A stretch of 64,000 nucleotides of DNA. Origin: Streptomyces brevispora (lineage in GTDB: Bacteria; Actinomycetota; Actinomycetes; Streptomycetales; Streptomycetaceae). Positions 59,267-62,558 of this stretch are shown in pieces (position 1 is the first letter of the stretch; every line of letters begins with the position of its first letter). A program made the translations under genes and the position numbers. The stretch lies in NCBI RefSeq assembly GCF_007829885.1, contig NZ_VIWW01000001.1:310001-374000 (forward strand). The letters run 5' to 3'. Below the pieces are notes generated by a model, which saw only the letters and a program-made list of their open reading frames with translations, ran no database searches and was not told the DNA's origin.

Positions 59267-60133
59267 TCAGGACTTGGCGGCGGAACCGAAGGCCGGAATG
59301 ACCGAGCCCTGGTAGCTGTCCTCGATGAACTTCTTGACTTCGTCGGAGTGGAGGAGCTTCACGAGCTTCTGGACGCGGGCGTCCTGCTCGTTGCCCTTCT
59401 TCACGGCGAGGATGTTGGCGTACGGGTTGTCGTCGGCCTTTTCGAGCGCCAGGGCGTCCGTTGAGGGCTTGAGCTTGGCCTCGATGGCGTAGTTGCCGTT
59501 GATGACGGCGGCGTCGACGTCGTTCAGGGCGCGGGGGACGGTGGCCGCCTCCAGCTCCTTGAACTTCAGGCCCTTCTTGTCGGTGATGTCGCTCAGCTTG
59601 GCGCTGGTGCCGACGCCGTCCTTGAGGGTGATCAGGCCGTTCGCCGCGAGCAGCTGGAGTGCCCGGCCCTCGTTGGTGGTGTCGTTCGGTACGGCGATGG
59701 TCTGGCCGGACTTGATGTCGCCCAGGTCCTTGACCTTCTTGGAGTAGAGGCCGAGGGGCTCCAGGTGCACGGTGCCGACGGAGACCAGGTGGGTGTTTTT
59801 CTTCGTGTTGAAGTCGTCGAGGTAGGGCTGGTGCTGGAAGAAGTTGACGTCGACCTGGCCGGTCTCGGTGGCGGTGTTCGGCAGGACGTAGTCCGTGAAC
59901 TCCTTGACCTCCAGCTTGAGGCCGGCCTTCTCCGCCAGGTTCTCCTTGACGAAGTTCAGGATGTCGGCGTGCGGCGTCGGGGACGCGGCGACGACGAGGG
60001 CCTTGGAGGTGTCGGCCTTGGCGCCGGTGTCGCTCTTGGACGCCGGGTCGGAGTCCGTACCGCAGGCGGTGAGGCCGAAGGCGAGAGCGGCGGTGGCGGC
60101 GGCAGCCGCGGTGATCTTGATGTTCTTGCGCAC
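59267..60133 (-). CDS. metQ: Methionine-binding lipoprotein MetQ (NLPA family)
   Basis: 288 residues. Lipobox LTAC after a signal sequence (NIKITAAAAATAALAFGLTAC). NLPA-type body: SPTPHADILNFVKENL, QVDVNFFQHQPYLDDFN, IAVPNDTTNEGRALQLLA, NGNYAIEA. It delivers methionine to MetNI. GTG start at 60133. It lies 73 bases after metI, same operon. Also seen in family members for related amino acids; methionine is favoured by the NIL domain of its ATPase partner. Confidence 0.95.
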   Translation of the reverse strand: MRKNIKITAAAAATAALAFGLTACGTDSDPASKSDTGAKADTSKALVVAASPTPHADILNFVKENLAEKAGLKLEVKEFTDYVLPNTATETGQVDVNFFQHQPYLDDFNTKKNTHLVSVGTVHLEPLGLYSKKVKDLGDIKSGQTIAVPNDTTNEGRALQLLAANGLITLKDGVGTSAKLSDITDKKGLKFKELEAATVPRALNDVDAAVINGNYAIEAKLKPSTDALALEKADDNPYANILAVKKGNEQDARVQKLVKLLHSDEVKKFIEDSYQGSVIPAFGSAAKS

Positions 60134-60206: not shown

Positions 60207-60878
60207 TCAGGAGGTGGTGCGGCCCCGGCGGGCCAGCAGGCGGACGGCTCCGTCGCCGATCAGCTGGATCACGGTCACGATGACGATCAGCAGCGCGACG
60301 GTGATGAGCATGAACTGGTTGTCGAAGCGCTGGAATCCGTAGGTGACGGCCTTGGAGCCGAGCCCTTCGCCGCCGACCGCGCCGGCCATCGCGGAGTAGC
60401 CGATGAGCACGATGACGGTGGTGGTGATGCCGGAGACGAGGGACGGCAGCGCCTGCGGCAACAGGACCTTGCGGACGATCGTCGGAACGGATCCGCCCAT
60501 GGACTGGACGGCCTCGACGAGCCCGTGGTCGACCTCGCGGACAGCCGTCTCGACGAGCCGGGCGAAGAACGGGATGGCGCCTACGGCGAGCGGCACGATC
60601 ATCGCGGTCGGGCCGATGAAGGTGCCGACGACCCAGGTGGTGAAGGGGATCAGGGCAATCAGCAGGATGATGAACGGCAGGGAGCGGCCGATGTTCACGA
60701 TCACGCCGATGACCTTGTTCACCGGGGTGTTCTGCAGCAGCCCGCCCTTGTCGGTGAGGACGAGCAGGACACCGAGCGGCAGTCCGACCAGGACGGTGAC
60801 GACCGCGGACCACAGCACCATGTAGAGGGTGTCGACGGTGCCCTGTGTCAGCAGCGGCTGCATTTCGGACCAGGTCAC
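60207..60878 (-). CDS. metI: Methionine ABC transporter permease MetI
   Basis: 223 residues, about five helices. The permease loop is EAVQSMGGSVPTIVRKVLLP. The starting MQPLLTQGTVDTLYMVLWS is typical of MetI. GTG at 60878 overlaps the metN stop as GTGA, so it is coupled to metN. Confidence 0.95.
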   Translation of the reverse strand: MTWSEMQPLLTQGTVDTLYMVLWSAVVTVLVGLPLGVLLVLTDKGGLLQNTPVNKVIGVIVNIGRSLPFIILLIALIPFTTWVVGTFIGPTAMIVPLAVGAIPFFARLVETAVREVDHGLVEAVQSMGGSVPTIVRKVLLPQALPSLVSGITTTVIVLIGYSAMAGAVGGEGLGSKAVTYGFQRFDNQFMLITVALLIVIVTVIQLIGDGAVRLLARRGRTTS

Positions 60879-61951
60879 TTCGCCACCTCCTTGGTGAGCG
60901 GTGCGGCGACGGGGGCGGCGTCCGTGTCGTCCGCGTCCTCGACGAGTTCGGCCTGCAGGCCCTGCTCGCGCAGGAAGCCGATGGGCACGACGTTCTCCTC
61001 GAACCGGCCGGGCAGCTCGATGCGCATGCGGCCGATCTGTTTGCCGCCGACGGTGTCCATCGCGGCGCCGAGGATCGAGATGTCGATGTTGTACGTACGG
61101 GAGAGCTGCGAGATCACCGGCCGGCCGGCGGCCTCGCCGTGGAAGGTGACGTCGACGACCGTGCGGTCGGGGCCGGAGGCGGTGCCGCCGACCGGGAACA
61201 GTTCGTGGGCGAGTTCGGAGCCGGGGGTGGCGAGCAGTTCGCCCACGGTGCCGGACTCGACGATGCGGCCCTTGCGCATCAGCGCGGCGGAGTCGCAGAC
61301 CGTTTTGACGACGTCCATCTCGTGCGTGATGAGCAGGACGGTGAGGCCGAGCTGCTGGTTGAGGTCGCGCAGCAGCTGGAGGATGGAGCGGGTGGTCTCG
61401 GGATCCAGCGCCGAGGTCGCCTCGTCGGAGAGCAGCACCTTGGGGTCGCCGGCGAGTGCGCGGGCGATTCCGACGCGCTGCTTCTGGCCGCCGGAGAGCT
61501 GGCCCGGGTACGCCTTGGCCTTGTCGGCGAGGCCGACCAGGTCGAGGAGTTCGAGGGCCTTGCGGGTCCGTTCGCGGCCGGCGACGCCGAGGATCTCCAG
61601 CGGGAGCTCGACGTTGTCCCGCACGGTGCGGGAGGCCAGCAGGTTGAAGTGCTGGAAGACCATGCCGATGCGGCTGCGCGCCTCGCGCAGTTCCCTGCCG
61701 GCCCGGCGGCCCCGGCCCGCGAGGGCCGTGAGGTCCTGGCCGGCCACGGTCACGGTGCCCGCGGTGGGGCGCTCCAGCAGGTTGACGCAGCGGATCAGGG
61801 ACGACTTTCCGGCACCGCTCTGTCCGATGACGCCGTAAACCTCACCCTCGCGGACATGCAGGTCGACGCCGTCCAGAGCAGCGACATCACGGTCGCGCGA
61901 CTGGTAGACCTTCGTGAGGCCCGTAGTGGTGATCACAGGGGTTTCCGTCAC
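60875..61951 (-). CDS. metN: Methionine ABC transporter ATP-binding protein MetN
   Basis: 358 residues. Walker A GQSGAGKSSL, signature LSGGQKQRV, Walker B LLSDEATSALD, H-loop ITHEMDVV, then a C-terminal NIL domain (SRTYNIDISILGAAMDTVGGKQIGRM) which senses methionine and inhibits transport. The start is GTG 61951 or GTG 61936; only the second has a purine-rich stretch at proper distance. First structural gene of metNIQ, preceded by a 200-base leader and a candidate leader peptide. Confidence 0.95.
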   Translation of the reverse strand: MTETPVITTTGLTKVYQSRDRDVAALDGVDLHVREGEVYGVIGQSGAGKSSLIRCVNLLERPTAGTVTVAGQDLTALAGRGRRAGRELREARSRIGMVFQHFNLLASRTVRDNVELPLEILGVAGRERTRKALELLDLVGLADKAKAYPGQLSGGQKQRVGIARALAGDPKVLLSDEATSALDPETTRSILQLLRDLNQQLGLTVLLITHEMDVVKTVCDSAALMRKGRIVESGTVGELLATPGSELAHELFPVGGTASGPDRTVVDVTFHGEAAGRPVISQLSRTYNIDISILGAAMDTVGGKQIGRMRIELPGRFEENVVPIGFLREQGLQAELVEDADDTDAAPVAAPLTKEVAK

Positions 61952-62160
61952 TGTCGAGTGCGCGGCGCGGTGTCCGCCGGGCACGGGGCATTCGTCCGGT
62001 GAGACTTTTCGGACGTCGATCGGACGTTTCGAGCGGGGTTCTGGGCACGGCCCGGCGCGGTGGTGACCGCGGGGCGGCGTGCCGGGGCAGGCTCGTTCCG
62101 CTGGGTGCGGACGGCTCGGGCTCGGTCTCGCTTCGGGGCGCGAGGCTCAGGCTGGGGCCC
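61952..62160 (-). promoter_or_regulatory. metN 5' leader with GC hairpins, possible attenuator
   Basis: Between the leader peptide stop and metN. Two structures stand out on the minus strand: a short hairpin using 62124-62131 and 62140-62147 right after the peptide stop, and a long imperfect GC hairpin spanning 62044-62083 (outer GGCACG/CGTGCC, inner CGCGG/CCGCG). No U tract. No SAM riboswitch motif recognised. Translation-coupled attenuation is inferred. Confidence 0.45.
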
Positions 62161-62247
62161 TCAGAAGGCGCGCATTCGACACATACAACGAGCACCGGGC
62201 GTCGTGATCGCCTCGGTCGCAAGGGTGCGGCTGCTCGTCGTGGTCAT
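62161..62247 (-). CDS. Candidate 28-residue leader peptide, Cys/Met rich at its end
   Basis: ATG at 62247 opens a 28-codon frame ending ARCMCRMRAF-stop at 62161: Cys21, Met22, Cys23 and Met25 lie within five residues. Both Cys codons are TGT and CGA encodes an Arg, codons that are rare in high-GC streptomycetes and could stall ribosomes under cysteine or methionine shortage. No strong Shine-Dalgarno is seen, so it may be leaderless. It is upstream of metN with hairpins between. Inference only. Confidence 0.5.
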   Translation of the reverse strand: MTTTSSRTLATEAITTPGARCMCRMRAF

Positions 62248-62558
62248 GGCCCAAGTAAAACAGACGTAACGTTCCGCTCGAACCGGTTGTCCGAATAGTG
62301 GACGGCCGTGGATGGTGTCCCGGCCTCGGCCCGCCAACCACGGAGATTTCCGGCCACACCGCTGTGACCTGCGGCGATATGGCGGGTTGGCGCTCGTCGG
62401 CGCCATCGGTCCCCGGCCCCGGCCGGTCCCGGGCTGTGGCCAAGGCCACGGTCACCGTGCGGCAGGGCGTCGGCGTGGGGCTTCCGGTTCACCGGTCGTC
62501 GGCACCTGGGTACGGGGGCGCACGCGGCGGGCCTCCCGGTCCGTAATACCCTCGGCTC
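62248..62558. promoter_or_regulatory. Divergent promoter region between metN leader and membrane genes
   Basis: 311 bases. The metNIQ promoter should lie just beyond 62247 on the minus strand; the stretch ACGTTACGTC with palindromic AACGTT is at about 62263-62276. The plus-strand membrane gene starts at 62559. No other gene seen. Confidence 0.45.

Follow-up and report, generated by a model that had tools for sequence, protein, structure and literature searches.

The leader open reading frame (ORF) described here is located on the minus strand of a 64,000-nucleotide stretch of Streptomyces brevispora DNA, referred to below as the window, and lies 5′ of metN, which is followed by metI and the gene of a MetQ-like lipoprotein. 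The features of the locus, with coordinates counted from the first letter of the window, are as follows.

59267–60133, minus strand: MetQ-like substrate-binding lipoprotein, identified by sequence and position, its family not scored
60207–60878, minus strand: metI, permease
60875–61936, minus strand: metN, methionine ABC transporter ATPase (TIGR02314, NIL domain), probable start GTG at 61936
62125–62146, minus strand: post-stop hairpin GCCTCGC-GCCCCGAA-GCGAGAC, no U tract, not scored as a terminator
62161–62247, minus strand: leader ORF (metL ortholog), 28 codons, MTTTSSRTLATEAITTPGARCMCRMRAF then stop, C-terminus ARCMCRMRAF-stop, with cross-genus orthologs and the frame intact in divergent loci
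62170–62187, minus strand: Cys/Met codon cluster TGT ATG TGT CGA ATG CGC, codons 21–26, core CGA-ATG
62185–62193, minus strand: 3′ arm of predicted helix P1, GCTCGTTGT, codons 19–21, closing at the first Cys codon, with compensatory changes
62194–62217, minus strand: predicted P3 hairpin within the ORF, ACCGAGGCG...CGCCCGGT, 99% of cells paired, G-C to A-U in 4 sequences
62218–62229, minus strand: predicted P2 hairpin within the ORF, CGCA-CCCT-TGCG, C-G to U-A in 3 sequences
62233–62241, minus strand: 5′ arm of predicted helix P1, ACGACGAGC, codons 3–5, pairing with codons 19–21 with covariation
62254–62265, minus strand: promoter -10 region GTCTGTTTTACT, extended -10 TG-N-TTTACT, 6 nt from the ATG, near-invariant in the alignment
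62288–62304, no strand assigned: imperfect palindrome CGTCCACTATTCGGACA, upstream of the promoter, centre about 50 nt from the ATG, candidate operator

A sequence-only reading of this DNA had proposed a 28-codon frame (62247–62161) with the end ARCMCRMRAF, two TGT codons and one CGA within its last eight codons, and a position upstream of metNIQ; the coordinates and the codons are confirmed, and metN, metI and the gene of a MetQ-like lipoprotein lie downstream. The last eight codons read TGT ATG TGT CGA ATG CGC GCC TTC and are followed by TGA. In the long ORFs of the window TGT makes up 21% of the Cys codons and CGA 5% of the Arg codons, and the chance of finding at least four Cys or Met in five residues at a given place is 1.9e-6. 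The start of metN is likely the GTG at 61936 rather than that of a longer reading from 61984, since the upstream GTG is not maintained in frame from species to species.

The element itself is not new, because its ortholog in Streptomyces lividans TK24, metL (SLIV_29928), was described in 2021, when it was named from transcript ends and sequence and annotated as a methionine attenuator (PMC8079986). The two peptides, of 28 residues in the window and 29 in the published metL, were aligned by eye and the gene order is the same. As reported there, metL shares with the present locus an orthologous leader (MSTTSDRTPATEATTTPGARCMCRRMCAF then stop), the same operon, hairpins without a typical terminator and, probably, a leaderless start; the published description differs in making it methionine-dependent, with Met and Thr as its abundant residues. 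The account of metL in that paper, as far as it goes, does not discuss cysteine, the CGA core, the RNA fold or a wider distribution.

Transcription of the leader most likely begins at the ATG itself. A leaderless start is indicated because the -10 box sits 6–7 nt before the leader ATG, a spacing that is conserved in Streptomyces and found in nearly all leaders from outside this genus, and the S. lividans ortholog, which has the only start mapped, was assigned a leaderless start by RNA-seq in the published account (PMC8079986). Further upstream, a palindrome of the type TGTCC...CGGACA is kept in most of 30 aligned Streptomyces loci and is a candidate operator for a putative regulator of metNIQ. 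Matches to it in the genome number in the hundreds and are weak, and no palindrome regulon emerged, because the two best-looking sites that were opened fall inside genes.

Aligned upstream of metN across Streptomyces, as the sequence-only reading had suggested, the leader region is matched in 215 of 220 genomes; in four of the remaining five metN itself is not matched at E ≤ 1e-60, and the contig of the fifth breaks off at metN. In 14 other genera of Streptomycetaceae, the sampled genera including Streptacidiphilus (g16) and Yinghuangia (g15), 43 of 44 loci likewise have a short ORF with a Cys-rich end before metN, L152 being unclear, and in a second family a leader stands before metN in all six loci of Catenulispora. 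Most of the metN loci sampled outside the order of Streptomycetaceae and Catenulispora have no such leader. Judged by these alignments, the leader is conserved across two bacterial families and its conservation is not due to chance. Strong nucleotide conservation, synonymous sites included, together with the conserved upstream palindrome, could be taken to mean that the ORF is untranslated and that a promoter, an operator or a structured 5′ end alone is being maintained. We consider this very improbable, because the frame is unbroken in every locus examined, insertions separating the conserved flanks come in multiples of three, and the Cys-rich end outlasts nucleotide divergence.

The N-terminal half of the leader peptides is variable while the end stays Cys-rich, also in loci whose nucleotide sequence has diverged. 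In a first tally of 105 distinct peptides, the enrichment over the proteins of the window within the last 14 residues is 22-fold for Cys and 10-fold for Met. At least two Cys stand among these residues in 100 of the 105, and of the five exceptions two proved to have been read from a wrong start. The composition of the end does shift between lineages: extra Cys, Met or Arg codons are gained in L029, L030, L070 and L153; L053, L059 and L066 carry one Cys and two Met; and single Cys or Met codons are lost in L008, L017, L020, L023, L053 and L075, which, like the replacement of the third Cys by Arg in the window's own clade, counts against the explanation that we favor below. A contiguous poly-Cys run is absent: the window and most relatives show a mixed C-M-C-R-M pattern, and CC pairs occur in only some leaders.

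These counts bear on the identity of the signal. The published assignment of the S. lividans leader (PMC8079986) implies a methionine-responsive attenuator, in which a lack of Met-tRNA would stall ribosomes at the Met codons and the cysteines would be incidental or secondary. It is in keeping with the import of methionine by the operon, the enrichment of Met near the end and the presence of one to three Met codons in nearly all leaders. We nevertheless regard it as unlikely, as the enrichment of Cys exceeds that of Met, L075 has four Cys and no internal Met, and the distant leaders of Catenulispora and Yinghuangia have gained Cys; a shortage of methionine would also hit the initiation of all proteins and so make a blunt signal. 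Comparison of the peptides shows cysteine to be conserved at the leader end more than methionine. The Cys/Met attenuator of the sequence-only reading stands in part, as a conserved, evidently translated leader with its Cys and Met codons kept, refined to cysteine first and methionine second.

One codon of the end is kept with unusual strictness. For the last Arg in front of a Met, 100 of 102 distinct leaders use CGA (codon 24 in the window, 62178–62176), a codon that serves only 8 of their 348 remaining Arg positions, although the leader counts are non-independent because the species share ancestry. Catenulispora and the most divergent Streptomyces retain the CGA-ATG core. A class-wide scan in which the Arg codon was left free (CGN) gave three matches in 393 genomes, too few to bear on the rule outside the family. 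Within the 130 nt that lead up to the start of metN, 26 of 74 Streptomyces loci have a second CGAATGC motif, typically CGAATGCCCCGTGCCCGGCGG.

The RNA of the leader ORF is also constrained. An RNAalifold consensus of 42 non-redundant leaders from Streptomyces and its sister genera gives three helices, P1, P2 and P3, within the ORF. Compensatory changes in P1 include AGC/GCT to AAC/GTT and A-U to G-C; the former is the clearest case, as it replaces Ser by Asn and, along with it, Ala by Val while the pair is kept, and it may represent a single event on the tree. P3 is weaker as evidence because it is mostly invariant. Over the three-helix fold 93.8% of cells are paired, against 24–44% with the partners slid, and 26 cells are changed on both sides, against 8.5 in shuffles (0 of 500 reach that value). 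How many pairs show a double change is unexceptional, since 43 of the 500 shuffles come up to it. On this comparative evidence the RNA of the leader ORF is a covarying three-helix fold that ends at the cysteine codons. That the same sequence serves both peptide and RNA would account for a large part of the ORF's nucleotide conservation. It does not account for CGA, which lies outside P1–P3, so that the near-absolute demand for this rare codon finds no explanation in the RNA helices found.

Past the stop codon, the sequence-only reading had seen two GC hairpins before metN, and only one of them is a conserved feature. The hairpin at 62146–62125, with its nearly invariant GCCCCGAA loop, is present in 96 of 128 loci, mostly 20–29 nt past the stop, and the second, CGCGGT-CACC-ACCGCG at about 62075–62056, falls in a stretch that cannot be aligned between species and is not conserved. 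The near-invariance of the post-stop loop, a CGA-ATG core kept beyond the needs of amino-acid sensing and the covarying fold in the ORF would all suit an arrest peptide or RNA element that senses no amino acid and instead answers to a drug, a redox state or a metabolite, or that simply loads ribosomes onto the transcript. We think such an element distinctly unlikely, because the peptide ahead of its end is free to vary, as known arrest peptides are not, the Cys codons cluster and multiply, the leader is tied to a sulfur amino-acid operon, and an Rfam match is absent.

An intrinsic terminator, that is, a hairpin with a U tract, was sought and no terminator-like site was found at the locus, which gives no indication of a classical terminator/antiterminator switch. 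Two long-range pairings were considered and set aside. Pairing of TGTCGA at the Cys codons with TCGACA in the ribosome-binding region of metN is striking in Streptomyces, but it was dropped, both as a mechanism for leaders in general and as an explanation of CGA, because it is absent in Catenulispora, Yinghuangia and others and its mean probability in the folds is only 0.16. For a pairing between the last codons and a segment downstream of them, the rank was 0.56 when compared with swapped partners and 0.49 when compared with shuffles. No anti-RBS or terminator pairing was found to be consistent across the leader loci, and since both long-range pairings failed their tests we claim no specific switch. 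Neither did the locus give a plausible match to an Rfam riboswitch, SAM families included. The same genome contains two SAM-IV riboswitches (RF00634) elsewhere, one of them near an aminotransferase-V/cysteine-desulfurase-like gene, whereas the metN locus has a conserved reading frame instead; the statement that the leader stands in place of a SAM riboswitch is accordingly apt as a description and not as a history.

Conservation of the frame, and of the Cys and Met codons beside its stop, is what the alignments establish, and the step from a stalled ribosome to expression is inferred. The reading that we favor as probable is a leaderless attenuator in which the leader peptide serves to sense charged tRNA-Cys, perhaps with tRNA-Met as well, and which controls the import of methionine. 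With ample cysteine (or methionine), ribosomes would run through the leader and leave, its RNA would fold, and the expression of metNIQ would be kept low. Under cysteine shortage a ribosome would slow at the Cys codons, perhaps aided by a slowly read CGA, and would keep P1 and the RNA ahead open, so that metNIQ is expressed. We take cysteine for the main signal because, of the two residues, it is the better conserved. It would also be a sensible signal for a methionine importer, since cysteine can be made from imported methionine by reverse transsulfuration. The output could be translational, as described for mycobacteria, or could act through Rho-dependent termination.

In Mycobacterium smegmatis, leaderless ORFs with Cys codons are reported to attenuate downstream translation depending on the supply of cysteine (Canestrari 2020, as cited in PMC9031893 and PMC13236596). 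These polycysteine ORFs are leaderless, as the present leader probably is, and resemble it in that they carry Cys codons near the stop, precede sulfur genes and are kept across species (Canestrari 2020; Shell 2015, PMC4633059). As described, they contain contiguous Cys runs before Cys-related operons, whereas the metL leader mixes Cys, Met and Arg codons, stands before a methionine importer and has an RNA fold in the ORF. The classical actinobacterial attenuators of trp and ilvB (PMC1262725) likewise combine a leader peptide, regulatory codons and a downstream amino-acid operon; for the metL leader, in contrast, no U-tract terminator hairpin was found, and the candidate long-range pairings did no better than null tests.

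Look-alike leaders occur in other taxa. In Cellulosimicrobium (L314) and seven further loci (L210, L211, L233, L239, L244, L249 and L252) a conserved leader end, C-C-R...TGRMCGC-stop, precedes a MetQ-like lipoprotein gene with a MetN-like ATPase further downstream, and a -10-like CATGAT box stands before the ATG in most; the CGA of these leaders was part of the search pattern. From its GRMCGC end and MetQ-like/MetN-like operon, the Cellulosimicrobium leader looks similar in kind, in another order. Very short ORFs ending in RMC[GS]C-stop were seen in Ornithinicoccus (L301, before a MetY-like PLP enzyme), Nakamurella (L281, before a flavin monooxygenase-like gene), Promicromonospora (L280) and Actinomyces provencensis (L262), the downstream genes being read by eye, and could be Cys leaders or chance matches. 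In another family, 459 nt upstream of metN, L169 (G462) reads MTTTAGTPRHLRRAAPMACCRRPDASC with TAGGGT 6–7 nt before the ATG, possibly an independent leaderless Cys leader at metN.

To the published annotation, comparison adds the range of the leader, its reading as a cysteine leader, the CGA core and the fold within the ORF. Together they suggest that cysteine is the signal for the leader, with the same device in two families and look-alikes in other orders. More tentatively, and with considerable doubt, there may be a class of Cys-sensing leaders in several actinobacterial orders that controls methionine import and other sulfur genes, with an R-M-C-x-C-stop type of end, an obligatory slow CGA and, in Streptomycetaceae, a three-helix fold in the coding sequence. 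If this were true, one short ORF would be sensor peptide and structural switch together. For the antibiotic producers that carry it, a one-line annotation becomes a testable regulator of methionine import.
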